From: a virus
Strand: one strand, 5' to 3'
IMG/VR virus record: IMGVR_UViG_3300000553_000250
Span: 1 to 25,492 of that record
Length of the DNA stretch: 25,492 nt
Under the pieces are notes generated by a model that did not search any database, had not been told where the DNA came from, and saw nothing but the letters and a program-made list of their open reading frames with translations. Numbering within the stretch: the first letter of the stretch is position 1; every line of letters begins with the position of its first letter. This document shows positions 3,449 to 23,100 of this stretch, one piece after another. Made by a program: the position numbers and the translations under genes.

Positions 3449-3456
3449 TCTAAGTA
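3449..3456 (+). promoter_or_regulatory. T4-like late promoter, leaderless spacing
   Basis: TCTAAGTA ends exactly 5 nt before the ATG at 3462 and no Shine-Dalgarno lies between. With T4-late geometry (octamer at -13 to -6) the +1 base is the A of the ATG. Confidence 0.55.
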
Positions 3457-3461
3457 TTTCC

Positions 3462-4364
3462 ATGAGCGACGAGTTTAAAAACCTATATGGCAGTATGCTA
3501 GTCAAGGATGCCAAGAGCATTCAAAACGCATATATTAAAGAGTATATCATCGAAAACAAAATTACGCAACGAATATTTTCAGATGAACTGCCTATAGATG
3601 TGCAAGATGATTTCTTAGATTTTTATCCTCGTTGGATTGCTAGTAGTAAACTCAATAACTTTAGTGGACTGTTTGCATTTCCGCATCGTTATATCAGCAT
3701 AGGCACTACACAGTCAATAGATGATTTTCATTTTTGGTGCAAAAAAACAAATCGCACCGTTAAAGTTTTTCGTGGTGAATATCCTTATAGCAGAAATATA
3801 TCTGTTAAAGAAGGCGACAAATTTATAGATGATAGCGAATTAAAGTGCGGCGATGCTGTTATTATCAGCTTACCATTTAGCGCAACTGGCAACATTCATC
3901 CGCAATGGAATGAACTTATGGATACTTGTGATAGGTTGAAAATACCAGTTATGGTTGATGCTGCTTTCTTTGGTACATGCTATGACATCACTGTTGATCT
4001 AAGTCGCGATTGCATTGACACCGTTGCATTTAGTCCAACGAAAGGATTAAATTGTGGCAAATGGCGCAGCGGTATTTGCTTTACAAAACGCAGTCCGCTG
4101 CATTGTCCGTTGGGCATACAAACCGAATGGCATCATGGCGTTCATCTAAACACTGCAATATGTTATCATCTTATGCAAGCATTCTCACCAGACACAGTTC
4201 CGTTAAAATGGAAAGATGCTCAACATCGAGCTTGTGCGCATTATGGATTAACCCCTAGCAAAACAGTGCATCTGACAATAGGCGATGAAAGATGGAAATA
4301 TTTTGCTAGAGATGATCTTTATAACAGAGTTAATATCTACTCTGCAATCAAGCTTTTTTCTTAA
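3462..4364 (+). CDS. PLP-dependent aminotransferase-fold enzyme
   Basis: A 300-aa protein with the core of a fold type I PLP enzyme: ISLPFSATGNIHPQW at 135-149 (Asn144 at the cofactor-binding turn), VDAAFFG at 165-171 (Asp166, expected to bind the pyridine nitrogen) and FSPTKGL at 190-196 (Lys194, the Schiff-base lysine). It is shorter than usual aminotransferases (350-450 aa), mainly in the C-terminal domain. Substrate unknown; amino-sugar or amino-acid chemistry fits the sugar-enzyme genes elsewhere in the window. The ATG follows a late-type octamer by 5 nt. The 3' end overlaps the convergent protease-like gene by 17 nt. Confidence 0.8.
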   Translation: MSDEFKNLYGSMLVKDAKSIQNAYIKEYIIENKITQRIFSDELPIDVQDDFLDFYPRWIASSKLNNFSGLFAFPHRYISIGTTQSIDDFHFWCKKTNRTVKVFRGEYPYSRNISVKEGDKFIDDSELKCGDAVIISLPFSATGNIHPQWNELMDTCDRLKIPVMVDAAFFGTCYDITVDLSRDCIDTVAFSPTKGLNCGKWRSGICFTKRSPLHCPLGIQTEWHHGVHLNTAICYHLMQAFSPDTVPLKWKDAQHRACAHYGLTPSKTVHLTIGDERWKYFARDDLYNRVNIYSAIKLFS

Positions 4365-4788
4365 CCTGTGATTGAAGGAACATGCGGTACAGTCCAAGTT
4401 CGCGACCGAACGCTTCGATCTCCCAAGGCGTGTCCCAATAGTTCATGTTCTCTGGATAATATTTTCCAGCAAAGCGATACATGCGCTTGCGTTCGCTGAA
4501 ACCAAAATTATCCTGAACATGCTGCTTGACATGCACCATCTCGTGAGCAAGGCCCAAGAGAATAGCGCGTTTTCCCATGCTAGCATCAATCGTAATGGTA
4601 AATTCTTTACCATCGTCGTTTACGCAGTCAGCATCGTTGCCGCTGTTTTCTTTGTAGTTCTTTTCAAAGTCAAGATAGACATCAACCTTGTCATGGTTCT
4701 TCATAAGATAATCGGCGTAAAATGCCATCGCTGCCTTGACAGTCTTGCGGTCAACTTTGGATGGCTTGCCAGAAATCGTGAGGTACAT
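4348..4788 (-). CDS. SprT-like zinc metallopeptidase-fold protein
   Basis: A 146-aa protein with HEMVH at 82-86, the HExxH zinc motif, within LGLAHEMVHVKQH. A downstream Glu in the PWEIEAFGRE segment (about 121-130) is a likely third zinc ligand. The N-terminal part predicts helices and strands of a compact zincin. There is no signal peptide. SprT-like proteins and small phage zincins are cytosolic; the target here is unknown. It has its own sigma70-type promoter (4818-4845), and GGAG lies about 9 nt before the ATG. Confidence 0.8.
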   Translation of the reverse strand: MYLTISGKPSKVDRKTVKAAMAFYADYLMKNHDKVDVYLDFEKNYKENSGNDADCVNDDGKEFTITIDASMGKRAILLGLAHEMVHVKQHVQDNFGFSERKRMYRFAGKYYPENMNYWDTPWEIEAFGRELGLYRMFLQSQVKKKA

Positions 4789-4817
4789 GGGTAAATCTCT
4801 CCATTGCTTATATTATC

Positions 4818-4845
4818 AATATAACACGATTTTAGGGGTTGTCAA
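4818..4845 (-). promoter_or_regulatory. Sigma70-type promoter with extended -10
   Basis: Minus strand: TTGACA (4840-4845), 16-nt spacer, TATATT (4818-4823) preceded by TGT. It overlaps the last codons of the kinase gene and drives the metallopeptidase-like gene. Confidence 0.8.
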
Positions 4846-5302
4846 GCATTATTATCTCGTCAAACCCCTCAGAAAGTTGTGGAATTTCAAGGGCTTCTAT
4901 CATTCCCTGTAAAATATTTTGAGGAATGTCTTTGCCAACCCGTGACTTTAAACGCCGTTCCAACTCAGGCGCATCTGGCGTAGGAAAAAATACCGCTACC
5001 TTGAGCCATTCGTCGTTAAATTGTCCCAGCTTGTACTTGCGGCCTTTAGCCATAGTGTTGGTCTGATCCCATACCAAATCCTTGCCTAACTTGATAGCTG
5101 TGTTGACCTGTGCCTTGCAGAAATCCATAGCATTGCCGATCTCACGGGAGAAGACATCGCTATAGGTCTTGCCTTGCTTGGCAGCAACCGTATCAATATA
5201 AGCATCGCTAGATGCAATGATCACATCTTCAAACTTCTGGTTTGCAACCCAAGTTGACTTGCCGCTACCTGGCACACCAATTAACATATAAACCTTGGTC
5301 AT
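4832..5302 (-). CDS. Polynucleotide kinase-like P-loop kinase
   Basis: A 156-aa AAA_33 / T4 Pnk-type kinase. The Walker A motif GVPGSGKST is at 9-17. A DQTNT segment near 100-104 and an RRLKSR lid segment near 135-140 match small phage 5'-OH polynucleotide kinases. It probably phosphorylates RNA or DNA 5' ends in end repair. T4 Pnkp fuses this domain to an HAD phosphatase; here the phosphatase is the separate gene at 5528-5968 in the same operon. Its ATG overlaps the upstream stop by 4 nt (ATGA), indicating translational coupling. Confidence 0.85.
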   Translation of the reverse strand: MTKVYMLIGVPGSGKSTWVANQKFEDVIIASSDAYIDTVAAKQGKTYSDVFSREIGNAMDFCKAQVNTAIKLGKDLVWDQTNTMAKGRKYKLGQFNDEWLKVAVFFPTPDAPELERRLKSRVGKDIPQNILQGMIEALEIPQLSEGFDEIIMLDNP

Positions 5303-5526
5303 TTTACACCTATCATTTCAACTTCTGCTTCTGTTTCAATCCAGAGTTTAGCACCACATTTGCGTGGTTTGTCTGGTCTATATACCATACGAGATGGACC
5401 CTTGATATCTACTTCCATGCAGTATGTTACCACACCATTCTGTTCAACGCGAACAACAGGCTCACTCTTATTGTGCTTAGAGTTAGCCTGTATAATGTTT
5501 CGGTTGATATGGATAATAGTAGTCAT
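5299..5526 (-). CDS. Hypothetical protein between phosphatase and kinase, 75 aa
   Basis: I start this at the ATG at 5526 (MTTIIHINRNII), one base after the phosphatase stop, rather than at the open-frame start 5649, which would run deep into the phosphatase gene. The protein is basic, with a beta-rich centre (VVRVEQNGVVTYCMEVDIKG) and no motif I know. Its stop overlaps the kinase ATG. Its place between the two halves of a split end-repair enzyme makes a nucleic-acid-related role plausible but unproven. Confidence 0.7.
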   Translation of the reverse strand: MTTIIHINRNIIQANSKHNKSEPVVRVEQNGVVTYCMEVDIKGPSRMVYRPDKPRKCGAKLWIETEAEVEMIGVK

Positions 5527-5527
5527 A

Positions 5528-5968
5528 TCAGAAATTACCTTCGGCAACTTGTAAAACACGAACGCCTTCTGCTCTGATCGCCTGCACCACTTGCTCTCTA
5601 TCGTCGAACCATAAAAACGGTGGTCCCCAATCCTTACGGATTTGTTCAAGCAATTCTACCTTGACGATGCTATCCTTCCTGTAATCTTTTTCCGCTCGCA
5701 TGTATAACGCATTGAAGTCAATACCATGCTGATGCAACCATGTTTCAGTAACGCCCCGTGTTTCCTCACCACGCCCACTGCACAAGATGATACGGTCTCC
5801 ACGAGCAAATAACATACCCAACAGTTCAACAATATCTACATGAACCGTATCATTAGCCATGCCAGCGTTCCAAGCAGCCCAGTTCTTTGGCTTGCTCGCA
5901 ACCCAATGCTTGCGATGTTCAGTGTTGGCAAGGGTACCATCAATGTCCACGACTATTACCTTACTCAT
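5528..5968 (-). CDS. HAD phosphatase, T4 Pnkp C-terminal type
   Basis: A 146-aa HAD-superfamily phosphatase. From the chosen ATG at 5968, motif I is DIDGT at 8-12 (nucleophile Asp8, acid/base Asp10). CSGRGEETR is motif II with the conserved Ser and the Arg patch, a Lys in YRKDS supplies motif III, and WFDDR supplies motif IV. This is the pattern of the 3'-phosphatase domain of T4 polynucleotide kinase/phosphatase. The start was chosen because ATGA overlaps the stop of the 52-aa gene. The kinase partner follows in the same operon. Confidence 0.85.
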   Translation of the reverse strand: MSKVIVVDIDGTLANTEHRKHWVASKPKNWAAWNAGMANDTVHVDIVELLGMLFARGDRIILCSGRGEETRGVTETWLHQHGIDFNALYMRAEKDYRKDSIVKVELLEQIRKDWGPPFLWFDDREQVVQAIRAEGVRVLQVAEGNF

Positions 5969-6123
5969 TTCAACCAATCCTTATGATAGTCAACGAGAGC
6001 CTTAATCATGTCTTGACTAAGTTCACCGTTGGATAGCAAACCTTCCATATATGAGTCATAAACAAGGTTTTTTCTGTCACAATAAAGTGACACCAAAAAG
6101 CGTAATTTATCCATGTCATACAT
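5965..6123 (-). CDS. Hypothetical protein, 52 aa, first gene of the end-repair operon
   Basis: The frame is open from 6174, but the promoter -35/-10 boxes occupy 6147-6174. The real start is therefore the ATG at 6123 (MYDMDKLRFL), with AAGGAG upstream. The product is a small helical soluble protein, ending VDYHKDWLK. I recognise no family. It leads the operon 52-aa protein, HAD phosphatase, 75-aa protein, kinase, all joined by 1-4 nt junctions. Confidence 0.72.
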   Translation of the reverse strand: MYDMDKLRFLVSLYCDRKNLVYDSYMEGLLSNGELSQDMIKALVDYHKDWLK

Positions 6124-6146
6124 TGTTTGTGTTCTCCTTATAACCC

Positions 6147-6174
6147 AATATAGCACAAATTTAGAAGCTGTCAA
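6147..6174 (-). promoter_or_regulatory. Sigma70-type promoter with extended -10
   Basis: Minus strand: TTGACA (6169-6174), 16-nt spacer, TGC-TATATT (-10 at 6147-6152). It drives the phosphatase/kinase operon and is back to back with the plus-strand promoter at 6189-6216. Confidence 0.85.
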
Positions 6175-6188
6175 GGGTTATTTTTCGC

Positions 6189-6216
6189 TTGACAAGACCT
6201 GAAAACATGCTATATT
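6189..6216 (+). promoter_or_regulatory. Sigma70-type promoter with extended -10
   Basis: TTGACA (6189-6194), 16-nt spacer, TGC-TATATT (-10 at 6211-6216), followed by GGGG. Only 14 nt separate its -35 from the -35 of the divergent promoter. The two share TGCTATATTGGG around the -10. Confidence 0.85.
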
Positions 6217-6240
6217 GGGGTATTAGCAATGGAGAAAACT

Positions 6241-6351
6241 ATGCGTATTACATATGATGATTTCTTTGCGCTTCTTGGTTTTTCCTTTTTTGCCTATTTT
6301 ATAGGTACTGGCAAAATCTGGGATACTATTATCTACCTTGGACATCTTTAA
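6241..6351 (+). CDS. 36-aa small membrane protein
   Basis: A short frame encoding MRITYDDFFALLGFSFFAYF and 16 more residues: a polar N-terminus, a hydrophobic span at about 8-22 and a second semi-hydrophobic C-terminal stretch. GGAG precedes the ATG at 6241; an in-frame ATG at 6229 lies upstream of that GGAG and is a weaker choice. It is the first gene after the plus-strand promoter. The stop is 12 nt before the next gene. Function unknown. Confidence 0.62.
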   Translation: MRITYDDFFALLGFSFFAYFIGTGKIWDTIIYLGHL

Positions 6352-6363
6352 TAGGAGAATAAA

Positions 6364-6585
6364 ATGAGTAATCAACGAGCAGGTAAAACCCATGCAGCAG
6401 CATTGGTTGATAGTGACAAGATTTCTGTTACCAGTTTGATTAGGTTCTTGCGAGAAGCCAAGAGCGATCTTGAAAAAAGCGGCGACGATGATGCGGCTCT
6501 TCGTTTTGAAATTCTCGCAGACTATCTTGTAGAAGATTATCGCGGCGGCGGTTTCAAGTATCAATCAAAAATGATTGGGCTGTAA
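6364..6585 (+). CDS. Hypothetical protein, 73 aa
   Basis: A soluble, largely helical protein starting MSNQRAGKTHAAALVDSDK, with an acidic middle (SGDDDAALRFEILADYLVEDY). AGGAG is placed well before the ATG. No family is recognised. It is co-transcribed with the 36-aa gene from the promoter at 6189-6216. Its stop codon lies inside a perfect hairpin (6574-6596), a probable transcript end. Confidence 0.72.
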   Translation: MSNQRAGKTHAAALVDSDKISVTSLIRFLREAKSDLEKSGDDDAALRFEILADYLVEDYRGGGFKYQSKMIGL

Positions 6586-6596
6586 AACAGCCCAAT
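6574..6596 (+). terminator. Hairpin at the end of the 6241-6585 operon
   Basis: A perfect 10-bp stem, ATTGGGCTGT with ACAGCCCAAT, closes a 3-nt loop. It includes the stop codon of the upstream gene. The downstream tract is AAATAT rather than a T run, so termination may be weak or the hairpin may protect the RNA 3' end. The late octamer at 6594-6601 overlaps its base. Confidence 0.55.
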
Positions 6597-6601
6597 AAAT
6601 A
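6594..6601 (+). promoter_or_regulatory. T4-like late promoter, leaderless spacing
   Basis: AATAAATA ends exactly 5 nt before the ATG at 6607, with no Shine-Dalgarno. The predicted +1 is the A of the ATG. Confidence 0.6.
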
Positions 6602-6606
6602 TCCAC

Positions 6607-7296
6607 ATGCAAATAATGGTATGTGGTGATAGTTTTGGCGTAAACACAAAACATAAGTTAAGTTGGATTAACTGGTTATCAAGATTATTAAATGTATCCG
6701 TTCATACATTTTGCCAAGGCGGATGCAGCAACTATTCTACATACTGGCAGTACAAAAATAATAATCCTGAAGATTATGATATTGCTATAATTTTAATCAC
6801 CAACACTCATCGCATTCCGATAGTAAAAGATAACCCACATCTTTGTTGTATGTTGGATAGCGGCGAGTTACGAAAGTCAAAATTATTGTCTATACCAAAA
6901 GATTATTCAGATGCACTTGATTATTATATAAAATATTACTTTAATGAAGAAGTTAATTTGTTTGTAAGTCAAAAATCAATACAAAATATTATTGACAGCA
7001 AACCAACAAACCAAAAACTTTTTATTTTAAATTCTGGATCAAGTAAAAATTTAGATATTGATTGCAACAACAGTGTTTATTGTTCTGGTTCACTGATTGA
7101 TGTTTTGCATGAAGAAGTAAAAAAATCTGGATTTTCAAGTGTATTGGAATATAATAATAAACATCCAGATGAATTAGATAAAATAAATCACCTGTCATTT
7201 CATAATAATTATAATTTGGCTAACTTTTTAAAAAATGTTATATTAGACCAAAGCGCAAATAAAAATTTATTAACACATAATTGGACATTCGATTGA
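6607..7296 (+). CDS. SGNH-hydrolase-like protein
   Basis: A 229-aa protein with GDSFG at 7-11 (candidate nucleophile Ser9), QGGCSNYS at about 37-44 (oxyanion Gly/Asn region), ILITNTHR at about 62-69 in place of the usual GxND, and NHLSFHNN near 193-200 as a candidate catalytic His. The usual Asp before that His appears to be Asn, so activity is uncertain. It may modify a sugar or lipid ester. The gene is AT-rich and overlaps the start of the C-methyltransferase gene. An internal ATG at 6616 is an alternative start. Confidence 0.68.
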   Translation: MQIMVCGDSFGVNTKHKLSWINWLSRLLNVSVHTFCQGGCSNYSTYWQYKNNNPEDYDIAIILITNTHRIPIVKDNPHLCCMLDSGELRKSKLLSIPKDYSDALDYYIKYYFNEEVNLFVSQKSIQNIIDSKPTNQKLFILNSGSSKNLDIDCNNSVYCSGSLIDVLHEEVKKSGFSSVLEYNNKHPDELDKINHLSFHNNYNLANFLKNVILDQSANKNLLTHNWTFD

Positions 7297-8507
7297 ATAA
7301 TTACAAACCACTTCGCCGTTGCCTATGTTGCGGCAATATCAATCTTAAACTTACATTAGACTTGGGTTCTCAGCCGCTTGCCAATAGTTTTAAGGCAACG
7401 GCTGTCGAGCCTGAAAACACTTATCCACTGGCAGTTAATTATTGTAGCGACTGTTCGCACCTACAGCTAACGCATGCCGTTGATGCAAATATCATATTCA
7501 AGAATTACCTTTATGTTAGCGGCACTAGTCTAACGATGCAAAATTATTTTGCATGGTTTGCAGATTTTGTCATGGAATATTTTCCAGATGTAAAACCTCG
7601 CAAAGTTTTAGAAATTGGCTGTAATGATGGAACACAGCTAAACTATTTTAAGAAGCATGGATTAGAAACAGTGGGCATTGATCCTGCTGAAAACATCTAT
7701 CCAATCTCTTCAAAGAACCATAAGATTATCTGCGATTTCTTGACACCAGAAGCCTTACTCAAAGTAGGCAAGACACCTGATATCATTTACGCACAAAATG
7801 TATTTGCGCACCAAGACGATCCAGAAACATTTTTGAAACTATGTCGCAATATTATGAATCCTAATACACTGTTGTTTATTCAAAACTCACAGAGTGATAT
7901 GATACAGAATAATGAGTTCGATACAATCTATCACGAGCATCGTAATTTCTTTAGTGTGAAGAGTTTATACACGCTTGCTAACAGTGTTGGCTTGAACATG
8001 ATTGATGTGTTTAAGGGAACCATCCATGGCGGCAGTAATATCTTTGTGTTCTCAACAGATCAACATAGTCCTGCTCGTATCTCCGCTTATCTTGATTGGG
8101 AGCGTATACAAGGACTGCATGATTATGCTACATATGAAGCATGGGCAAGTGGAGCAAGGCAGACAGTTAATGACCTTTCTATGGTCCTAGACGGGCAGCG
8201 CAAGGCACACAAACGCCTCGTGGTGGGCTATGGAGCGCCAGCAAAGGGCAACACTCTACTCAACTTTGGTAACATTGATATGGACTTTATTATTGATGAT
8301 AATCCACTTAAGCAAGGCAAATTCACGCCAGGAATGAGTATACCTGTTGTTACTATTGATGAGTTGAAGCGGTATCCTGATCGTGAGATTTGCTTTGTGC
8401 CACTTGCATGGAACTTCTTTGACGAAATTGTTGGCAGAATTAAAAAAGTTCGCAACTTTAAAGGCGATGTATTCGTTAAGTACTTTCCAGAAATAGTAAT
8501 CTCATAA
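7293..8507 (+). CDS. SAM-dependent sugar C-methyltransferase
   Basis: A 404-aa three-part methyltransferase. The N-terminal zinc-binding domain has CLCCG at 10-14 and CSDC at 51-54. The Rossmann core has VLEIGCNDGT (105-114) for SAM. The C-terminal part has YHEHRNFF, GTIHGGS and the VGYGAPAKGNTLLNF block typical of NDP-hexose C-methyltransferases (NovU/TylC3-like family). The likely reaction is C-methylation of a keto-sugar nucleotide for glycan or DNA/virion decoration. The start is a TTG, at 7293 (overlapping the upstream TGA) or possibly 7281; no ATG is available. Confidence 0.85.
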   Translation: MNNYKPLRRCLCCGNINLKLTLDLGSQPLANSFKATAVEPENTYPLAVNYCSDCSHLQLTHAVDANIIFKNYLYVSGTSLTMQNYFAWFADFVMEYFPDVKPRKVLEIGCNDGTQLNYFKKHGLETVGIDPAENIYPISSKNHKIICDFLTPEALLKVGKTPDIIYAQNVFAHQDDPETFLKLCRNIMNPNTLLFIQNSQSDMIQNNEFDTIYHEHRNFFSVKSLYTLANSVGLNMIDVFKGTIHGGSNIFVFSTDQHSPARISAYLDWERIQGLHDYATYEAWASGARQTVNDLSMVLDGQRKAHKRLVVGYGAPAKGNTLLNFGNIDMDFIIDDNPLKQGKFTPGMSIPVVTIDELKRYPDREICFVPLAWNFFDEIVGRIKKVRNFKGDVFVKYFPEIVIS

Positions 8508-8510
8508 ATA
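8503..8510 (+). promoter_or_regulatory. T4-like late promoter octamer
   Basis: CATAAATA overlaps the stop codon of the methyltransferase. The predicted +1 near 8516 leaves a 16-nt leader with CAGGAG before the ATG at 8532. Confidence 0.6.
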
Positions 8511-8531
8511 AACAGCAGGAGAGATTACGCT

Positions 8532-9173
8532 ATGAACAACGATATCAGACTTACAATGTTAGTGCTAGAAGGTTTAGAAATTAACCATAGCATGGACCCT
8601 GAAATTGCTGAATTAGTTCGTGGTTTAATGGTTGAAGGTTCACAACTAGACGAAGGTATCATTGATACCATCAAGGAAAAAGCTGCTGCTTTTGCTGATA
8701 AGGTAAAAGATAATGCAAAGAATATTCTGCCTTCGATAACTAAGAAATTTGAAAATGTCTTAGCACAAGTTCGTGCTAAACAAGGTGACGAAGCTGCTGA
8801 TGCAATTGAAACCGAAATGTCTAAAAAAGGCGGCAGCAACTGGAAATCTAACAGTACTAAAATTGCAGCAGCACTGGCTGTTGCTAGTAGTTTAGCACAA
8901 GCATCACCAGCACAAGCACAAGACATTTATATACGCATGATATCTCCATATCAAGCACAGCAATATGATATGCAGCGCCATGCAAATTTTGATCGTCAAC
9001 GCGCAATGATGTGGCAAAGACAACAACAATTTTACCAGCAGCAAGGATACCAACAAGGTTATCCACAAGGCTACTACCAACAGGATCAAGGCGCAAACAA
9101 TGCAGCAGCACTTGCAATCGGCGTTATGATTGGTGCAGCACTTGGCGCAGCTTTAAGTCAGCCACATAACTAA
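8532..9173 (+). CDS. Late protein with helical N-half, Q-rich linker and terminal membrane span
   Basis: A 213-aa protein in four parts: an acidic helical N-terminal region (1-50), an amphipathic Lys/Ala-rich helical segment (50-100), a hydrophobic segment with a signal-like end (AAALAVASSLAQASPAQAQ, about 112-130), and a Gln/Tyr-rich low-complexity stretch (QQGYQQGYPQGYYQQ, about 166-180) before a C-terminal hydrophobic span (ALAIGVMIGAALGAALS). The N-terminal part contains LDE-G, which resembles the T4 gp21 protease cleavage pattern. It may be a virion or membrane-active protein. I know no named family. Shine-Dalgarno CAGGAG is present. Confidence 0.7.
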   Translation: MNNDIRLTMLVLEGLEINHSMDPEIAELVRGLMVEGSQLDEGIIDTIKEKAAAFADKVKDNAKNILPSITKKFENVLAQVRAKQGDEAADAIETEMSKKGGSNWKSNSTKIAAALAVASSLAQASPAQAQDIYIRMISPYQAQQYDMQRHANFDRQRAMMWQRQQQFYQQQGYQQGYPQGYYQQDQGANNAAALAIGVMIGAALGAALSQPHN

Positions 9174-9176
9174 ATC

Positions 9177-9184
9177 AATAAATA
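9177..9184 (+). promoter_or_regulatory. T4-like late promoter, leaderless spacing
   Basis: AATAAATA ends exactly 5 nt before the ATG at 9190. No Shine-Dalgarno is present between, so the predicted transcript begins at the start codon. Confidence 0.6.
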
Positions 9185-9189
9185 TCTTT

Positions 9190-9915
9190 ATGCGCAGCAG
9201 AGAATTTATCACAGAGTCACGATTGCTCCTTGAGGGCGGAAATATGTTTAAGGATGCTGAAGATTTTGATCAACAGTATGCTACACACATTATTAAAATT
9301 GTAAACGATGCACTTGCTCCAACAAATATATCAGTAACGCCTATTGGTAGTGGCGCAACACCAACGCCAGGAAAGATAAGCGGCGATTTTGATGTTATGG
9401 CAGATGAAGGCGCAGTTCAATCGTATTTCAAAGTAAAAGATGCTAAAGAAGCTCGTCGTGCGCTGCGTGATTATCTAACACAAAAAGGTTTTGAGACTGC
9501 GCAAAGTGGCATCAATGTACATATGTTAGTTCCGCTACCAAATGGTAAAAAAGCACAGACTGATATTATGGTTACACCACACGCAGGTGAGATTAGCAAA
9601 TTTCACAAACATAATATTCCACTTGGCAGTAAGTTTAAAGGAACGCATAAAGCAATCCTAATGAGTGTGCTAGCTAAGACAAAAGGAATGATGTGGAGTC
9701 CATGGAATGGGTTGTTTAATCGTACACCAGATGGCAAGCGTGGTGACCTTATAAGCAATAATATTGATGTAGTTGCTCGCACTTTACTTGGCTCACATGC
9801 AATTGGCGGTGACCTTGGAAGTGTTGAAAGTATTCTTGCAAAACTTCCACAACAAAAAATAGATGAATTGATGACGCTGCTTGATGCTGATCCAAATTGG
9901 AAAGCTATAACATGA
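9190..9915 (+). CDS. Nucleotidyltransferase-fold protein with capsid-targeting-like N-terminus
   Basis: A 241-aa protein. The N-terminus MRSREFITESRLLLEGG resembles T4 capsid targeting sequences (MKTYQEFIAEA-type), with ITE-S and LLE-G fitting the gp21 protease pattern (I/L)-x-E. The main domain has GSGATPTP near 54-61, then GDFDVMAD (Asp-x-Asp) near 65-72, and AQTDIMVT near 117-124 with a third acidic residue, the layout of a nucleotidyltransferase active site. It could be an internal head protein injected with DNA that modifies a host target. Both the fold and the packaging are inferred. It overlaps the next gene by 4 nt. Confidence 0.7.
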   Translation: MRSREFITESRLLLEGGNMFKDAEDFDQQYATHIIKIVNDALAPTNISVTPIGSGATPTPGKISGDFDVMADEGAVQSYFKVKDAKEARRALRDYLTQKGFETAQSGINVHMLVPLPNGKKAQTDIMVTPHAGEISKFHKHNIPLGSKFKGTHKAILMSVLAKTKGMMWSPWNGLFNRTPDGKRGDLISNNIDVVARTLLGSHAIGGDLGSVESILAKLPQQKIDELMTLLDADPNWKAIT

Positions 9916-11264: not shown

Positions 11265-11274
11265 CCTGCCCTTT
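11250..11274. terminator. Bidirectional terminator between convergent genes
   Basis: AAAGGGCAGG pairs with CCTGCCCTTT around loop ATTAA (10 bp). It is flanked by A-rich bases on the left and T-rich bases on the right, so it can end both the plus transcript from 9190 and the minus transcript through 11280. Confidence 0.8.
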
Positions 11275-11279
11275 ATTAA

Positions 11280-11642
11280 TTAAGCATCACGAGAAATATA
11301 GTGATGACGAATCTTCTGCGGCTTAAAATACTTTTCTACAGTGTTAAAGACAAGTTCGTTTTCAAATGGCTTACATGAGAAAACATCAATATAGAAATTG
11401 CCATCATTATCACAGAAATGACCAGTAATGTTTGATGTTTCAATCATCTGACAAAGACTATATCCAGCCTTGTCAGCAGCATGCGTTGCAAAACGCTCAA
11501 TCCAAGGTTCACCAAATGCTGTCATGTCAATAACAACAACTAGTTCCTTAATAAAATTATAGATATTTTCCTTTGAACCGATAAGTTCCTTATCGCCAGC
11601 GGTGCAGTCTAGTAGTAGGTGGCAACCCCAAGTCTTGCTCAT
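11280..11642 (-). CDS. speH: S-adenosylmethionine decarboxylase (SpeH/SpeD type)
   Basis: A 120-aa prokaryotic-type AdoMet decarboxylase: WGCHLLLDCTAG at 5-16, DMTAFGEPW at 39-47, IETSNITGH at 67-75 and YIDVFSCKPF at 84-93. Ser70, His75 and Cys90 keep the spacing of the pyruvoyl Ser63, His68 and Cys83 of the Thermotoga enzyme. The residue before the self-cleavage Ser is Thr instead of Glu. The product, decarboxylated AdoMet, feeds spermidine synthesis; polyamines neutralise packaged DNA, and speD-like genes occur in marine cyanophages. GGAG precedes the ATG. It follows the exonuclease gene on the same strand. Confidence 0.85.
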   Translation of the reverse strand: MSKTWGCHLLLDCTAGDKELIGSKENIYNFIKELVVVIDMTAFGEPWIERFATHAADKAGYSLCQMIETSNITGHFCDNDGNFYIDVFSCKPFENELVFNTVEKYFKPQKIRHHYISRDA

Positions 11643-11675
11643 GCCAGTCTCCTTTGTTTATAGCAATTTGAAGAA

Positions 11676-12227
11676 TTATTTATTTGGATATACGCCTAAC
11701 TTGTGGAAACACTCAGTTAGCCGTTGTATTTGTGACAAGCAATCCCATAGCGCATGGTGCTTGTTATTTTGTGGAATAAAATGGTCAGGAACCAGTTTAT
11801 AAATGGTGCGAGCATCTAATACTTGCCAGAAATGCCAAGAGTTATCAAACCCAACTTGTCGGTTACAGCTTTCAAGAATGCTGAAATCAAACTGAACTCC
11901 ATTTGCCCAATAGCGATCTGCTCCTTGCGCCCACTGGTTAAGACTCTTCATTGCTTCTGGCAGCGGCAAACGATTGCTATCAGCAAATGCTTCTGCCTTT
12001 GCTTCTTCTGGTTGTTTTGCCCACCACTGCACAGTATCTTCGTCAATTTGACGATTTTGATTTTCTACTTCTACACGAGTATAGAAAAAATCAAGTGTGG
12101 TTGGGTCTGCTACCATTCCGTAATTTCCCATACGGTCAAAGGCAATGCCAGCAATAGTTAAAACTGTGGCATCAGGCGTTTTGCCTAGCGTCTCGATATC
12201 GATCATTACATCTCTATGTTTTATCAT
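11676..12227 (-). CDS. DEDDh 3'-5' exonuclease
   Basis: A 183-aa RNase T/DnaQ-like nuclease. From ATG 12227: DIE at 10-12 gives the first Asp/Glu pair, FDF in the middle (NGVQFDFSILES) the second acidic site, and HHALWDCLSQ near the C-terminus the catalytic His and last Asp. It probably processes nucleic-acid 3' ends. The open frame extends to 12242, but the -10 box lies at 12234-12239, so 12227 (which would be leaderless) or the internal ATG at 12206 (MIDIETLG) is the true start. Confidence 0.85.
   Translation of the reverse strand: MIKHRDVMIDIETLGKTPDATVLTIAGIAFDRMGNYGMVADPTTLDFFYTRVEVENQNRQIDEDTVQWWAKQPEEAKAEAFADSNRLPLPEAMKSLNQWAQGADRYWANGVQFDFSILESCNRQVGFDNSWHFWQVLDARTIYKLVPDHFIPQNNKHHALWDCLSQIQRLTECFHKLGVYPNK
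11677..11684 (-). promoter_or_regulatory. Possible late-type octamer before the decarboxylase
   Basis: AATAAATA on the minus strand, within the last codons of the exonuclease gene. The predicted start near 11671 leaves a 29-nt leader with GGAG. Read-through from the exonuclease promoter is an equally good explanation. Confidence 0.35.
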
Positions 12228-12233
12228 ACTCTC

Positions 12234-12261
12234 AATATACACTAAAATATTATATTGTCAA
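12234..12261 (-). promoter_or_regulatory. Sigma70-type promoter
   Basis: Minus strand: TTGACA (12256-12261), 16-nt spacer, TATATT (12234-12239). The expected start, 7 nt downstream, is the A of the ATG at 12227. Confidence 0.8.
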
Positions 12262-12281
12262 CAAGTTTTTTGCTAAAAAAT

Positions 12282-12289
12282 GGTAAATA
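12282..12289 (+). promoter_or_regulatory. T4-like late promoter octamer
   Basis: GGTAAATA, predicted +1 near 12295, with a leader carrying CGGAG before the GTG at 12320. It opens the small membrane protein cassette and is divergent from the exonuclease promoter. Confidence 0.5.
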
Positions 12290-12319
12290 TGATTAGTAAG
12301 TTTTTCGGAGTACTAACCA

Positions 12320-12460
12320 GTGTCTACTCAAGAATGGCAATGCATTAAAAATAATGTACCTAATTTTATATTATGGCCTGAGTTTTTGTATGGTTGTTTG
12401 TTTGGCGCATGTGGCGGTGTTTTACTTCTTGAAGCAATATTAAAGATGGTAGTTCGATAA
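12320..12460 (+). CDS. 46-aa membrane protein, GTG start
   Basis: The frame from GTG 12320 encodes (M)STQEWQCIKNNVPNFIL, then a Gly/Cys/Leu-rich hydrophobic span (residues about 23-41, GCLFGACGGVLLLEA) and a basic tail. CGGAG lies 9 nt upstream. A glycine-rich single span of this size would suit a small holin-like or envelope protein, but there is no family match. It is followed 14 nt later by the first YvrJ-like gene. Confidence 0.58.
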   Translation: MSTQEWQCIKNNVPNFILWPEFLYGCLFGACGGVLLLEAILKMVVR

Positions 12461-12474
12461 ATTGGAAGTCACAC

Positions 12475-12753
12475 ATGGACTTTTTAAAATTAGTTGGTGA
12501 AGTTGGATTCCCTATTGCTGCCGCCTGTGCTGGCGGCTATTTTGTTTTTTTAACCCTAAAATTTATTCTTGCTGGCGTTACAAGTTCTGTGAATGGCATT
12601 AAAGGTATCATTATGGCACTTGATAACCGTGTAAAGACGATGAACCACGATGTTATTAGAATTGATACACTTATGAGTAATGCATTAGGTGTGCGTCCCG
12701 ACCTTGACCGTATTGCTCGTGCAGACGGTAAAAATGATGCTCGCAGAGATTAA
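12475..12753 (+). CDS. YvrJ/BhlA-like small membrane protein, copy 1
   Basis: A 92-aa protein with an N-terminal membrane span in VGFPIAAACAGGYFVFLTLKFI (about 10-31) and an amphipathic helical C-terminal region (ALDNRVKTMNHDVIRIDTL). The E/KxGFPI start of the span resembles the YvrJ and BhlA/UviB holin-like families. It is a paralogue of the gene at 14275-14646, which shares the GFPI-A-A-GYF-F core and the following D-R---D-IR pattern. GGAAG precedes the ATG. A role in membrane permeabilisation is possible but not shown. Confidence 0.65.
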   Translation: MDFLKLVGEVGFPIAAACAGGYFVFLTLKFILAGVTSSVNGIKGIIMALDNRVKTMNHDVIRIDTLMSNALGVRPDLDRIARADGKNDARRD

Positions 12754-12765
12754 AAGGAAAATAAA

Positions 12766-12855
12766 ATGGTAGAATATTTCGTAGTAACAGGCTTATTAAT
12801 TCAAATGGGCATACTTGCATTTGTTGGGAAAGATTATCTATGGGCAAAAGTATAA
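12766..12855 (+). CDS. 29-aa membrane peptide
   Basis: A short frame, MVEYFVVTGLLIQMGILAFV plus GKDYLWAKV: one hydrophobic span with a charged tail. The leader AAGGAAAATAAAATG is nearly the same as the one before the gene at 13158, which supports expression. Its end overlaps the start of the exported protein gene by 16 nt. Confidence 0.55.
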   Translation: MVEYFVVTGLLIQMGILAFVGKDYLWAKV

Positions 12856-13133
12856 AATATATTTTATTAATAGCATTATCGTTATCAACACCTGCGATGG
12901 CATTTGATATAAAAGGTGACAAGGGCGAACTTAAACGCACACCTCCGCCCAAAGTTGATGGTCTTTGGCGCATTGATCCTATTAGAATAACTGACCCTCC
13001 AATTTATTGGGGAGATTGGGTAGAGCATCCTCCACATCATCGCTACCATGAACATATACATCCATTATGTTCATGCATAGGCACTGTACATATACCATTA
13101 GATAAACTTAGAATATATCACCCACAAGAGTAA
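12840..13133 (+). CDS. Exported proline/histidine-rich protein, 97 aa
   Basis: Signal peptide MGKSIKYILLIALSLSTPAMA with cleavage expected after AMA (about residue 21), then a mature domain of about 76 aa rich in Pro, His, Trp and Ile (PPIYWGDWVEHPPHHRYHEH). Two Cys (CSC) could form a disulphide or bind metal with the His cluster. It should be periplasmic. I recognise no family. It overlaps the 29-aa gene. A spanin-like or envelope role is possible, but it lacks a lipobox. Confidence 0.68.
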   Translation: MGKSIKYILLIALSLSTPAMAFDIKGDKGELKRTPPPKVDGLWRIDPIRITDPPIYWGDWVEHPPHHRYHEHIHPLCSCIGTVHIPLDKLRIYHPQE

Positions 13134-13157
13134 TTACTTGCACCGAAGGAAAATAAA

Positions 13158-13253
13158 ATGAGTATGATTCTTAGTAGTCTAATTGTCATACAACTGATTA
13201 TAAGTACTGCTATTATAGGATGGATTTTACATGGACTTTACAAGGATGACTGA
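13158..13253 (+). CDS. 31-aa membrane peptide
   Basis: The frame encodes MSMILSSLIVIQLIISTAII and GWILHGLYKDD: one long hydrophobic span with a polar tail. It has the same AAGGAAAATAAAATG leader as the 29-aa gene. The end overlaps the DUF4337-like gene start by 23 nt. Confidence 0.55.
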   Translation: MSMILSSLIVIQLIISTAIIGWILHGLYKDD

Positions 13254-13848
13254 CATGGTTTTAAAAAATAAAGATGGCAAAGTACTGAGTCGCAGCGAAG
13301 GTGAAGCAGTTCTTAAAGATAAAGCAAGTGTTACGATTACGATTTTTGCTGCATTTTTGGCAATTTGTTCTTGGTTAGGCGGACAAGTTAGCGGTAAGAT
13401 TATGGCTAATAATATTCAACTTGGAGATGTATGGTCTTTCTACCAAGCAAAAAGTATTAAACAGAATATGTACCAACTTAACCTTGATGATTTAAAAATT
13501 CAAATTTCTGAAACTAATGATGCTAATATTAAGAAATCTCTTGAATCTCGCATAGAGAATTACCAAAAATATATTGATGTTCTTGAAAGTGATCCAAAAA
13601 CTGGCGAAGGTAAAAAAGAAATTCTTGCTAAAGGCCGTGCGTTGGAGGCAGAGCGTGATAGTGCCAAGAAGCGTAGCCCATATTTTGGTATCGCCGCTAC
13701 AGTACTTCAAATAGCTATCGTATTAAGCACAACAGCAATACTGGCAGTTAGCTTGGCATTATGGTATAGTAGCATTGGTGTTGGAATTATCGGCATTATT
13801 CTTTTAGCAGATGGTGTTTGGTATTTCTTGCCCCTGCCATGGTTATAA
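13231..13848 (+). CDS. DUF4337-like membrane protein
   Basis: A 205-aa protein: a charged N-terminus, one span at about 32-50 (VTITIFAAFLAICSWLGG), the segment WSFYQAKSIKQ at about 68-78 typical of DUF4337, a helical extramembrane domain (about 80-148), then two closely spaced spans (about 150-200) ending in PLPWL. DUF4337 proteins are bacterial membrane proteins of unknown function. The first ATG is 13231 with AGGA about 10 nt upstream; ATGs at 13246 and 13255 are alternatives. Finding one in a phage-like setting is unusual. Confidence 0.72.
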   Translation: MDFTRMTDMVLKNKDGKVLSRSEGEAVLKDKASVTITIFAAFLAICSWLGGQVSGKIMANNIQLGDVWSFYQAKSIKQNMYQLNLDDLKIQISETNDANIKKSLESRIENYQKYIDVLESDPKTGEGKKEILAKGRALEAERDSAKKRSPYFGIAATVLQIAIVLSTTAILAVSLALWYSSIGVGIIGIILLADGVWYFLPLPWL

Positions 13849-13851
13849 ATA
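13844..13851 (+). promoter_or_regulatory. T4-like late promoter, consensus match
   Basis: TATAAATA, identical to the T4 late consensus, overlaps the stop codon of the DUF4337-like gene. The predicted +1 near 13857 leaves a 30-nt leader with a purine-rich GGA-containing site before the ATG at 13887. Confidence 0.6.
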
Positions 13852-13886
13852 ATCTTGGTGGGAAAACTTAAAAAAAAGGAAATCCT

Positions 13887-14075
13887 ATGCGTAAAATTAT
13901 ACTAGTAGCAACCGTTATGGCGTTTGCATCAACTGGGTTTGTAAGTTCAGCGTTTGCAAAATCAGCATGTGATCCCGTATCAAATCCAAAAGCTTGCAAG
14001 AGCGTGGTACATCACAAAACACCAAAAGCTTCAATTTGCAAGATAAAAGACAAAAAGAAATGTCCTAAGAAATAA
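13887..14075 (+). CDS. Small exported Cys/Lys-rich protein, 62 aa
   Basis: Signal peptide MRKIILVATVMAFASTGFVS, with cleavage after AFA (about residue 24), then a mature peptide of about 38 residues, strongly basic, with four Cys in the pattern C-x8-C-x13-C-x6-C. It is expected in the periplasm, probably disulphide-bonded. Such small basic cysteine-rich peptides can bind membranes or proteins, but no family is recognised. It has its own late-type promoter. Confidence 0.7.
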   Translation: MRKIILVATVMAFASTGFVSSAFAKSACDPVSNPKACKSVVHHKTPKASICKIKDKKKCPKK

Positions 14076-14085
14076 TTAACTTTTT

Positions 14086-14093
14086 GTTAAGTA
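14086..14093 (+). promoter_or_regulatory. Possible T4-like late promoter octamer
   Basis: GTTAAGTA in the intergenic region, predicted +1 near 14099, 15 nt before the GTG at 14114. Confidence 0.4.
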
Positions 14094-14113
14094 TTTGGTG
14101 GTAAACTAATGAA

Positions 14114-14275
14114 GTGGAAAATGTACAGTATCCTTATCGTGTTGAAGAACACCGCCATGTAAATGGTGACCGATATTTTACTGTGTATTTCCATGGAAGA
14201 TTAATAATAATATTACGAAATAAAAAAACAGCAGACGAATACATAGAATTAAACAAGAAATATAAAGAGAAATAA
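14114..14275 (+). CDS. Hypothetical protein, 53 aa, GTG start
   Basis: The frame from GTG 14114 encodes (M)ENVQYPYRVEEHRHVNGDR, a beta-rich central part (YFTVYFHGRLIIIL) and a basic helical tail. The stop TAA shares its last base with the ATG of the next gene (TAATG), which supports translation of this frame. A competing ATG at 14109 opens only 17 codons. It has no signal peptide or full membrane span, and the Shine-Dalgarno is weak. The function is unknown. Confidence 0.55.
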   Translation: MENVQYPYRVEEHRHVNGDRYFTVYFHGRLIIILRNKKTADEYIELNKKYKEK

Positions 14276-14646
14276 TGGAATTGGGATTAGCAGACGCAAT
14301 TAACAAATATGGTTTTCCAATTGTTGCTGCGGCTGGAATGGGATATTTTATATTTTTTACCTGGCAATGGGCTACAACAGAAGTAAAACCAGTGTTAAGT
14401 GAAGCTAATACGGTGTTGATTGCTCTCATTGACCGTATTCGTATGTTAGATAACGATCTTATCCGTCTTAATCAAAAACTAAACATTGTGCTAATGTTGC
14501 GCGGCAAAGAGATTGAAAGCCAGCGCCATCTTGATGATGCCAAAGCTGCTGTTGCTGCACAAAAAGTAGAACTTGAAGCAGAAAAAACGCTAAAGAAAGC
14601 AGCTAAAGAAATCAATAAAAACGAAGCCGCTGGCGGTAATAGTTAA
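14275..14646 (+). CDS. YvrJ/BhlA-like small membrane protein, copy 2
   Basis: A 123-aa paralogue of the 12475 gene: KYGFPIVAAAGMGYFIFFTW (about 11-30) as membrane span, then the helical IALIDRIRMLDNDLIRLNQKL region, then an extra Ala/Lys/Glu-rich coiled-coil tail (about 75-118) missing from copy 1. The topology suits a holin-like or scaffold protein with a cytoplasmic coiled coil. Its start is coupled to the 53-aa gene. It meets the convergent HNH gene tail to tail with a 4-nt overlap. Confidence 0.66.
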   Translation: MELGLADAINKYGFPIVAAAGMGYFIFFTWQWATTEVKPVLSEANTVLIALIDRIRMLDNDLIRLNQKLNIVLMLRGKEIESQRHLDDAKAAVAAQKVELEAEKTLKKAAKEINKNEAAGGNS

Positions 14647-15170
14647 TTACTTAGAATTGCTTCTTTTTTAATTAAAAAAACAGAAGTATTATTTTGTCTT
14701 GCTGCTTCATTCAATCCTTTATATTCTACACCACGATAGATTACAGTTTTAAGAAGCGGATGCTTTAATCTTTTTTCTTCCGTGCAAGGTTGAAGTTTTC
14801 CTTTATTGGGAGAAACCTTTCCATATCTTGGATTTTTCTCACCAACCATTTTTCTTTTTTCCACCCATTCTGCGGATTGTTTTCGCCCTTTTCCTTGACC
14901 TTTTTTAGATTCACTAATTTTTCTTTTTGTTTCTTCGCTTAATGGTGGTCTTTTTACACCTCTACGAGCAGCATACATTATTTCCATTCTTTCTTCTTCT
15001 GTAATCAAACCAAGCAATCCTCTATATGCAACAAGGTCTTGCCACCTTCCATGCACTTCATACAAAATTTTGTGTGCTTCTGCGTGTTCTTCTATGGTTA
15101 GTTCTACGAGATTCGATGGGTCATCAGTTCCGCCCATATGTCTTGGAATAATATGATGTTTATGTTTCAT
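14643..15170 (-). CDS. HNH homing endonuclease with NUMOD3 and NUMOD1-like modules
   Basis: I start at ATG 15170 (MKHKHHIIPRHMGG), not at the frame's upstream limit 15317, which lies inside the cyclase gene. The 175-aa protein has HH at 5-6, Asn20 and His29 (an HNH core: HHIIPRHMGGTDDPSNLVEL), a NUMOD3 segment (LSEETKRKISESKKGQGKG, about 77-95) and a helix-turn-helix-like NUMOD1 tail (YRGVEYKGLNEAARQNNTS). It is a free-standing mobile gene. A late-type octamer lies exactly 5 nt before the ATG. It sits right behind the cyclase gene stop. Confidence 0.85.
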   Translation of the reverse strand: MKHKHHIIPRHMGGTDDPSNLVELTIEEHAEAHKILYEVHGRWQDLVAYRGLLGLITEEERMEIMYAARRGVKRPPLSEETKRKISESKKGQGKGRKQSAEWVEKRKMVGEKNPRYGKVSPNKGKLQPCTEEKRLKHPLLKTVIYRGVEYKGLNEAARQNNTSVFLIKKEAILSN

Positions 15171-15175
15171 ATTAT

Positions 15176-15183
15176 TATTTATG
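15176..15183 (-). promoter_or_regulatory. T4-like late promoter, leaderless spacing
   Basis: CATAAATA on the minus strand, then exactly 5 nt (ATAAT), then the HNH ATG at 15170. No Shine-Dalgarno is present. Confidence 0.6.
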
Positions 15184-15198
15184 ATTTGTTCTATAAAC

Positions 15199-17250
15199 CT
15201 ATTTTGAAGTTGCTCTAAAAACACCATCCCAACCTTCGCCTGGTAGATTTTCTGCCATCTCTGTACAGCGTTCAATCCACATATCATAATAGCCATCCAT
15301 TTGACCATCAAACTCACCTTTTAACTGCTTGCATGCATCAATAGCAGTTTTAAAGTGTTGTGAGCGATAATCATCCATCATACTAAGATGCCCACTTTTT
15401 GCTGCTAGGTATTCTGCGGCTGAACCAACATCATATATCTGTAGCACAGTGTGAATATTCACACCTTCTTTTTTACCCTTAACTGCAATGCAATCTAGTG
15501 GCAGAGTAAAGTACTCGTCCTTGACATATTCATTAGTCTTATCACCAATAACCATAGCAACATGATATGGTTTACTTTGTCCTTCTAAGCGTGATGCCAG
15601 ATTAACGCCATCACCAAGACAAGTATAATCAAAACGCTGACTAGAACCCATGTTGCCCACCACCACAGTAGCAGTGTTAATACCAAGCCCCATACCGAAA
15701 GGTGGAACACCTTCGGCAGCAACTTCTCTATTAAACGCATCTAAACTTCCTAACATTTGTAATGCTGTTTTCACAGCGTTTTTTGCATGGTCTGCATCAT
15801 CAAGTGGTGCGTTCCAAAATGCCATTTGTGCATCACCAATATACTTGTCAAGAGTGCCCTCGTTTTCTAATATCTTTGCTGTCATCGCTGTCATATAGCG
15901 ATTCATTATTTTGGTAAGACCTTGAACATCACTACCATAATGCTCAGAAATTGAAGTAAAGCCCCTAACATCGGTAAACATAATTGACAATTCACGAGAC
16001 TCTCCACCAAGCGTTAATAATTCAGGATTCTTTTGTAGTTTCTCAACCATTGCTGGTGAAAGATAAGTTCCAAATTGTTTCTTTATTTGTTGTTTTTGTA
16101 AGAACTCACTAACAAATTTAACTCCATAAGCATGCAATGCCACTAGTATAATTGTGACAGTAAATGCAGTAGCGTCAAACAAATAAAGGTTGCTACTAAA
16201 TTCGTACATGCTGCCACCAATACCAGCGAGAACAAGTACAACGACAGTTGATAATCCGACATAAGTCCACCTTGTTAAAAATAATAATAATAAACTACCA
16301 ATGATAAGAGCAGCAAGTTCTGCGCCTTCTGCATAATCTGGTCTAGAAATGTTAACCTTGTTTGCCAGTGTTGCAATAATTTTTGCTTGAATATCTTGTG
16401 GATATACAGCACCGATAGCAGTTGGAACAGGGTTAGCAATACCAGCCGCACTGGTGCCAACAATAACAACAGCGCCATCAAAGTTTTGTGGCATATTCAT
16501 AAGACTTACTTGCTTATGCTGTTGACTTAAATCAATCCATACACGACCAAGTTGATCAGTGGTGAATATAGACTTGCCCATGCCCATCTTATCAATACCA
16601 ATTTCACTTAACTTGACCTTAAAGTTCTTTTCTTGCATCAAGACACGCAGCGTCTCAATACCAATAGTAGGATAAAGTTTGCCGCCACTGCCAACAAGAA
16701 GTGGAATACGACGATTCACACCATCTATTTCAGGATATACATTTGTAGTTCCGACACCGATAGCGGCGTTTTCTAGTTCTGGAATGTTGGCGATTACCCC
16801 AGGATAATTGTAAATCCTATCAATAAAATTACTGTTGACAATGGCAGCACCGTTAGGGCGAGGCGTATTTTTACTCACGCTGCTTGGAATATTTGAAAGA
16901 ATGGTTGGGTGTTGCTTAAGAGTATCTGCTAGAACTGCATCACCGCCTTGACGGTCTGCCTCTGGCATCAACACTGTCCATACAACTAGACTTGCTCCAC
17001 GAGCATAGATATCTTTAATAATATCCGCATATATTTGTCTATTAAACGGCCACTGACCATACTTGTCAAGTGCTGCTTCATCAATATTGACTGTATAAAT
17101 TGGATTATCAGTTGGCGCTTTGTTGGTGATTAGCGTGTCAAAGTATCGTAACTTAATACTTTCAACAAAGTTGGGTGATGAAACTTTGATAGCAACTAAT
17201 ATTGCCAGCGTGATGAGTGCAGTCCATGGAGATAGCAGAATTTTTTTCAT
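15199..17250 (-). CDS. CHASE2-domain class III adenylate cyclase
   Basis: A 683-aa membrane enzyme. An N-terminal span (about 8-24) leads to a periplasmic CHASE2 sensor (about 30-300, with YTVNIDEAALDKYGQWPF and GAVYPQDIQAKIIATL), then three spans (about 310-378), a short linker and a class III cyclase domain (about 415-605). Metal-binding Asp427 (FTDVRGF) and Asp473 (KYIGDA), substrate residues Lys469 and Thr543, and Asn550 and Arg554 (NLASRLEG) are all present. The Lys/Thr pair is the class IIIb adenylate-cyclase signature. It should make cAMP from ATP in response to a periplasmic signal. Late-type octamer 5 nt before the ATG; terminator upstream. Confidence 0.9.
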   Translation of the reverse strand: MKKILLSPWTALITLAILVAIKVSSPNFVESIKLRYFDTLITNKAPTDNPIYTVNIDEAALDKYGQWPFNRQIYADIIKDIYARGASLVVWTVLMPEADRQGGDAVLADTLKQHPTILSNIPSSVSKNTPRPNGAAIVNSNFIDRIYNYPGVIANIPELENAAIGVGTTNVYPEIDGVNRRIPLLVGSGGKLYPTIGIETLRVLMQEKNFKVKLSEIGIDKMGMGKSIFTTDQLGRVWIDLSQQHKQVSLMNMPQNFDGAVVIVGTSAAGIANPVPTAIGAVYPQDIQAKIIATLANKVNISRPDYAEGAELAALIIGSLLLLFLTRWTYVGLSTVVVLVLAGIGGSMYEFSSNLYLFDATAFTVTIILVALHAYGVKFVSEFLQKQQIKKQFGTYLSPAMVEKLQKNPELLTLGGESRELSIMFTDVRGFTSISEHYGSDVQGLTKIMNRYMTAMTAKILENEGTLDKYIGDAQMAFWNAPLDDADHAKNAVKTALQMLGSLDAFNREVAAEGVPPFGMGLGINTATVVVGNMGSSQRFDYTCLGDGVNLASRLEGQSKPYHVAMVIGDKTNEYVKDEYFTLPLDCIAVKGKKEGVNIHTVLQIYDVGSAAEYLAAKSGHLSMMDDYRSQHFKTAIDACKQLKGEFDGQMDGYYDMWIERCTEMAENLPGEGWDGVFRATSK

Positions 17251-17255
17251 GAATA

Positions 17256-17263
17256 TATTTACC
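17256..17263 (-). promoter_or_regulatory. T4-like late promoter, leaderless spacing
   Basis: GGTAAATA on the minus strand, exactly 5 nt before the cyclase ATG at 17250, no Shine-Dalgarno. It lies just past the terminator of the upstream gene, so the cyclase has its own transcription unit. Confidence 0.6.
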
Positions 17264-17267
17264 CAAG

Positions 17268-17295
17268 AAAAAACCCCGCAAATTTCTTTGCGGGG
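17268..17295 (-). terminator. Rho-independent terminator after the GHKL ATPase gene
   Basis: On the minus strand CCCCGCAAA pairs with TTTGCGGGG around a 4-nt loop (9 bp, G/C-rich), followed by TTTTTT. Confidence 0.92.
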
Positions 17296-20984: not shown

Positions 20985-20992
20985 GTTAAATA
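20985..20992 (+). promoter_or_regulatory. T4-like late promoter of the curli-like operon
   Basis: GTTAAATA, predicted +1 near 20998, 18-nt leader with GGAG 5 nt before the ATG at 21016. Confidence 0.55.
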
Positions 20993-22343: not shown

Positions 22344-22366
22344 TATATTGTGATAAGGATGGAATT

Positions 22367-23095: not shown

Positions 23096-23100
23096 AATCA

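Follow-up and report, generated by a model that had tools for sequence, protein, structure and literature searches.

Why do several genes of one virus fragment carry a T4-type late-promoter octamer at exactly the same short distance from their start codons? The stretch of DNA in question, hereafter the window, comprises 25,492 nucleotides (positions 1 to 25,492 of the IMG/VR virus record IMGVR_UViG_3300000553_000250), and is part of a fragment, its contig being a 28.8-kb virus record. A sequence-only reading of the window had reported five octamers of the pattern NNTAARTA, each exactly 5 nt before a gene-opening ATG and none accompanied by a Shine-Dalgarno site, and had proposed that a subset of late genes is expressed from leaderless transcripts. 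All five octamers were verified (Table 1; distances run from the octamer end to ATG), and AGGA, GGAG and GAGG are absent within 20 nt of every one of them. Octamers at this spacing precede 5 of the 27 window genes, whereas 3000 dinucleotide shuffles give 0.06 on average and 2 at most, and the base before ATG is C or T in all five. The spacing is very probably best explained by leaderless mRNAs, with the promoter placing the transcription start (+1) on the A of the start codon; genes arranged in this way are referred to here as leaderless-spaced.

The window had no match among phage records by megablast. Matches to Methylophilales phage Melnitz and Pelagibacter phage HTVC008M were obtained for its cyclase and FecR-like genes, and 15 stretches align to the 338-kb contig G003, which encodes gp23 and gp55 homologues; the window therefore belongs to a large aquatic T4-like group. 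A first census covered the window and 80 IMG/VR loci (81 loci), after which long or complete genomes were read gene by gene, with simple longest-open reading frame (ORF) gene calls in which the first three in-frame ATGs were considered. The clade sample consists of 11 genomes, namely eight metagenomic contigs and the isolates HTVC008M, Mosig and Melnitz (methylophage/pelagimyophage group; Kyanoviridae in GenBank), which are clade members and themselves show the trait. T4, the RB49-like phage Phi1, Syn9, S-SKS1, DLP6, P-HM1 and P-RSM6 served as seven comparators.

The claim of leaderless late transcripts was to fall if genome-wide distances showed no excess at 5 nt, and the excess is present. 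In the first census, 80 octamers lie at 5 nt, compared with 1–24 at other distances up to 15 nt and a next highest count of 32. In the 11 clade genomes the octamer-to-ATG distance is bimodal, with a sharp peak at 5 nt, few octamers at 8–14 nt and a second mode at 15–30 nt. When each protein family is counted once per distance, 84 families fall at 5 nt, 28 at 4, 25 at 6 and 16 at 7, over a background of 7.7, followed by a broad second mode at 16–25 nt; with 84 distinct families at one distance, the signal is not that of a single gene inherited many times. The tally for the spacing peak is 143 genes in 111 families. Observed and shuffled counts at 5 nt in five genomes are 19 and 1.5, 18 and 1.6, 18 and 0.9, 7 and 0.3, and 11 and 1.0. 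Octamers at 4–7 nt versus 15–30 nt number 195 versus 298 in the clade, but 10 versus 147 in the comparators (Fisher p about 1.5e-17). T4, the RB49-like phage, Syn9, S-SKS1 and DLP6 have the second, leadered mode only, and among the genomes compared the leaderless spacing is restricted to one clade. The cyanophage P-RSM6 (HQ634193), with five octamers at 4–6 nt, is borderline among the comparators; these may be sporadic, or an early form of the trait outside the clade. Within the clade, the ranking of positional 6-mers is headed by TAAATA at spacing 5, ahead of every Shine-Dalgarno 6-mer; start codons at the 5-nt spacing are 81 ATG, 4 GTG and 1 TTG; and Shine-Dalgarno sites are absent from the leaderless-spaced genes and present in most leadered ones.

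The register of the promoter can be read from its downstream sequence. Bacterial RNA polymerase usually prefers a pyrimidine at -1 and a purine at +1, and the T4 late octamer occupies -13 to -6. From the T4 late box to the start is about one helical turn (PMC2988020). In the leadered octamers of the comparators, a purine stands at offset +5 in 87%, the most sharply defined position of this kind in the sequence read downstream, in keeping with the -13 to -6 register. Among the 81 genes of the clade's 5-nt class, 94% have a pyrimidine immediately before ATG, compared with 48% of 1281 other genes (p=6e-18). Both the +5 purine peak and the -1 pyrimidine bias back the assignment of +1 to the A of the start codon that had been proposed for the five window genes.

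A second promoter type points the same way. In the clade phages TATAAT peaks sharply at 6 nt from ATG, mostly with TTGACA 17 nt upstream, and 6 nt is a common -10-to-start spacing of sigma-70 promoters. Relaxed sigma-70 matches number 47 at 6 nt and about 5 at each neighbouring distance, and a Shine-Dalgarno site accompanies 2 of these 47 genes, as opposed to 146 of the 261 leadered ones. The exact arrangement TTGACA-N16-18-TATAAT-N6-ATG occurs at 25 sites in clade records, at none in the reversed control and at none in the seven comparators; for relaxed matches the contrast between clade and comparators is weaker (Fisher p 0.005) than for the octamer. The window contains one sigma-70 promoter at the 6-nt spacing, before its exonuclease gene. 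The longest-ORF listing opens this gene with a GTG at 12242, which is a product of that listing; the homologue on G003 (locus L098) likewise has TTGACA, TATATT and 6 nt, and that of locus L050 has TACAAT at 6 nt. Three independent lines in the sequence, the +5 purine, the -1 pyrimidine and the sigma-70 spacing, would thus place +1 on the A of ATG, the octamer from 5 nt and TATAAT from 6 nt. The proposal of leaderless expression is supported, with an amendment: it is not confined to late genes, since sigma-70 promoters are likewise placed, with a spacing one base longer.

Orthologous genes retain the layout to a varying extent. The cyclase gene has an octamer at 4–5 nt in the window, in L001–L003, L005, L006, HTVC008M and Melnitz, and in several copies this octamer directly follows a terminator-like hairpin; many other copies have no octamer and AAGGA-like sites instead. 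For the HNH gene, the listed ORF (14643-15317, minus strand) opens with a GTG upstream of the octamer, and homologues favour the ATG at 15170 as the true start; octamer-5-ATG is retained in five homologues (43–57% identity), and further copies have a leader. Restriction to late times, comparable to that suggested for this HNH/NUMOD3 gene, is known for several homing endonucleases of T4. The leaderless-spaced window genes are accessory and not virion genes. Virion genes under such promoters are found in HTVC008M, the depositor-annotated starts of which coincide with 12 of 14 TAAATA-N5-ATG sites, including six virion-protein genes: DNA end protector (gp2), tail completion (gp3), head completion (gp4), baseplate wedge subunit (gp25-like), tail-tube-associated baseplate (gp48-like) and tape measure. 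Its gp2 and gp4 genes (L081 18916-18943) are divergent, and the 26-bp gap between them holds two opposed octamers, which leaves no room for a leader. Such divergent pairs with octamers at both ends number eight in all (ATG-to-ATG gaps 26–52 bp), seven of them in G005, G006 and G018. The late sigma factor gp55 has homologues in G003, G005 and G007 and is annotated in HTVC008M and Melnitz, and the octamer resembles TATAAATA without a -35 element, its TAARTA core being conserved and the information upstream about zero. The string TATAAATA-N5-ATG itself is not matched anywhere in the contig of the window, as the octamers differ in their first two bases.

Other readings of the spacing were weighed. 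AT-rich stretches just 5' of start codons can help initiation, and the spacing is as tight as expected for such a signal, so that the octamer, instead of being a promoter, might act in translation (as a protein S1 site, for instance) within RNAs that start farther upstream. This is very improbable: the unrelated TATAAT, with TTGACA at 17 nt, behaves alike one base farther off, and two promoters of different registers that both put +1 on the A of ATG are predicted by no explanation of this kind. Moreover, the same octamer at 15–30 nt comes with a Shine-Dalgarno site, the octamer at 17256 in the window is closely preceded by a terminator-like hairpin, and the leaderless-spaced class has terminators upstream more often (12 of 143, versus 17 of 1279). 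Slightly less probable still is that these are ordinary late promoters with misassigned starts, the true ones being later in-frame ATGs with leaders. The gene at 9190 does have an in-frame ATG 54 nt downstream with a GAGG-like site; however, in the other four window genes no nearby in-frame ATG is preceded by a Shine-Dalgarno site, the N-terminus of the cyclase (MKKILLSP-like) can be aligned between leaderless-spaced and leadered relatives, and the annotated HTVC008M starts agree as described above.

The least credible account, with a probability close to nil, is that the spacing arose by chance or as a side effect of AT richness or of the TAA stop of the preceding gene. In its favour are the AT richness of the genomes and the presence of the upstream stop codon within some octamers, but shuffles and reversed patterns speak against it and the counts already refute it: at spacing 5, TAAATA is found 103 times and the next most frequent TAANNN hexamer 6 times, and T4, equally AT-rich (35% G+C), has none at 4–7 nt. 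An AT-rich motif as such was tried and rejected, as control hexamers lack the 5-nt peak; two of the AT-rich controls, ATRAATNN and ATAAATAN, overlap the real motif and are invalid as controls. Very short leaders of 1–3 nt, with starts scattered at offsets 4–7, would account for the smaller counts at 4, 6 and 7 nt and for the frequent A at offset +4 in the 7-nt group, yet the 5-nt class is three to four times larger and bears the -1 pyrimidine/+1 A signature, which makes this reading unlikely. In G005, G006, G018 and G007, the 7-nt class mostly shows A at offset +4 and then two pyrimidines (e.g., TAAATANNNNACT-ATG), which suggests a subclass with a 3-nt leader.

Several points weigh against the interpretation as leaderless mRNAs. 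The octamer fills the place of the Shine-Dalgarno site, so that its absence, itself a hallmark of leaderless mRNAs, is partly forced by the promoter. For the minority of octamers that lie at 4, 6 or 7 nt, the start would be displaced by one base or the leader would measure 1–3 nt. The window, itself a portion of a 28.8-kb fragment, shows no gp55 gene, and the identity of its octamers as late promoters consequently rests on relatives. Finally, the case is built from sequence, and most of the large genomes compared are metagenomic contigs. With these points taken into account, we conclude that leaderless mRNAs, late as well as early, are a predicted trait of the clade.

The proposed mechanism can be outlined as follows. 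From a gp55-type octamer (NNTAARTA, -13 to -6) located 5 nt before ATG, gp55-RNA polymerase would start at the A of ATG, and some early-type genes would be served in the same way by a host sigma-70 promoter 6 nt before ATG. Ribosomes would then recognise the AUG at the 5' end itself, unaided by a Shine-Dalgarno site, as is known for leaderless mRNAs; other genes of the same genomes would employ the same promoters with a 10–25 nt leader and a Shine-Dalgarno site. The likely benefit is that a gene would be silent in upstream read-through RNA, since no Shine-Dalgarno site precedes its AUG, and would be translated only from its own promoter. A more elaborate scheme, a two-mode translation programme in which phage bS21 and RimK-like enzymes alter the host ribosome so that leaderless sigma-70 and gp55 mRNAs outcompete leadered ones, appears doubtful. 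Of 20 records (G002–G018, HTVC008M, Melnitz), 14 encode ribosomal protein bS21, and a RimK-like gene lies in the window at 19405-20289; no phage-encoded initiation factor IF3 was found in 17 records.

The window also contains octamers at leadered distances (Table 1). The sequence-only reading had listed five of these as farther from the start and associated with a Shine-Dalgarno-like site, which holds for 2200 (minus strand), 8503, 13844 and 20985 (21–35 nt to ATG) but not for 12282, where no clear gene lies at a sensible distance. Two further leadered octamers were missing from it, at 13199 (24 nt, GGA) and 11677 (minus strand; 34 nt, AAGGAG). Repeats of at least 8 bp surround 6.9% of leadered octamers, compared with 1.7% in shuffles; hairpins around octamers as a general silencing device were considered and rejected, being not enriched in the leaderless class and in mild excess in the leadered one. 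In CsgF-family homologues (e.g., L063, L108), the leadered octamer lies within an inverted repeat the 3' arm of which is the Shine-Dalgarno site, as in T4 gene e and I-TevI. The window genes at 21016-24219 (CsgF-like, CsgG-like, curlin-repeat-like and FecR-like) represent the curli cluster that has been discussed for the phages Melnitz and HTVC008M.

Table 1. Promoter elements, genes and hairpins of the window considered in the text.
Feature	Coordinates	Strand	Remarks
Late octamer TCTAAGTA	3449..3456	+	5 nt to ATG at 3462
Leaderless-spaced gene	3462..4364	+	300 aa, weak aminotransferase class I/II similarity
Inverted repeat GGGCTG-TAAAA-CAGCCC	6577..6593	+	Abuts octamer directly, no T run
Late octamer AATAAATA	6594..6601	+	5 nt to ATG at 6607
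Leaderless-spaced gene	6607..7296	+	229 aa, no family match
Leadered late octamer CATAAATA	8503..8510	+	21 nt and GGAG before ATG at 8532
Late octamer AATAAATA	9177..9184	+	5 nt to ATG at 9190; same spacing in G003 homologue
Leaderless-spaced gene	9190..9915	+	241 aa, no family match
Exonuclease gene (PHROG 255)	11676..12227	-	Leaderless-spaced from sigma-70; layout shared by relatives
Sigma-70 promoter	12234..12261	-	TTGACA 12261-12256, 16-nt spacer, TATATT 12239-12234, 6 nt to ATG 12227; absent from the sequence-only reading
HNH/NUMOD3 endonuclease gene	14643..15170	-	Leaderless-spaced; directly after cyclase gene, own late promoter
Late octamer CATAAATA	15176..15183	-	5 nt to ATG at 15170
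CHASE2-adenylate/guanylate cyclase gene	15199..17250	-	Leaderless-spaced
Late octamer GGTAAATA	17256..17263	-	5 nt to ATG at 17250; conserved in relatives, HTVC008M and Melnitz
Terminator-like hairpin CCCCGCAAA-GAAA-TTTGCGGGG and T run	17268..17295	-	Ends just upstream of the 17256 octamer
Leadered octamer GTTAAATA	20985..20992	+	23 nt and GGAG before ATG at 21016 (CsgF-like family)

T4-type late expression is a textbook system, and its known promoters feed leadered mRNAs. The clade promoters share with the gp55/gp33/gp45-dependent late promoters of T4 (TATAAATA) the octamer core, the lack of a -35 element and the location at homologues of T4 late genes, but their first base is free and their second often not A; T4, Phi1 and Syn9 have the octamer at leadered distances and lack the 4–6 nt class. 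Bacterial leaderless mRNAs, for example those of mycobacteria (PMC4633059), are similar in that the -10 element places +1 on the A of ATG, a Shine-Dalgarno site is absent and ATG is favoured; the difference is that the present case concerns T4-like phages and a phage-type late promoter besides sigma-70. In T4 e, soc and I-TevI, the late promoter lies within a hairpin hiding the Shine-Dalgarno site in early read-through RNA (PMC2988022), which limits translation to RNA from the gene's own late promoter; leaderless placement could do the same without a hairpin. The Melnitz authors gave 15 late promoters by TATAAAT match, with no comment on spacing in the portion of their report consulted (PMC9004378), late promoter prediction in pelagimyophages was reported unsuccessful (PMC7029224), and leaderless phage RNAs have been mentioned in general terms (PMC5312081). 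An open-access literature search found no leaderless transcripts tied to T4-type late promoters, in agreement with the sequence-only reading, which knew of no description of them for T4-type phages.

With this spacing as a rule, late and early promoters of pelagimyophages can be located from sequence, and start codons are corrected. A further question it poses is how host ribosomes deal with leaderless phage messages, and as the clade has cultured members, the leaderless prediction is open to direct test. A large aquatic branch of the T4-type phages, unlike its cousins, appears to have shifted some of its genes to leaderless expression, so that the switch can be dated and compared.

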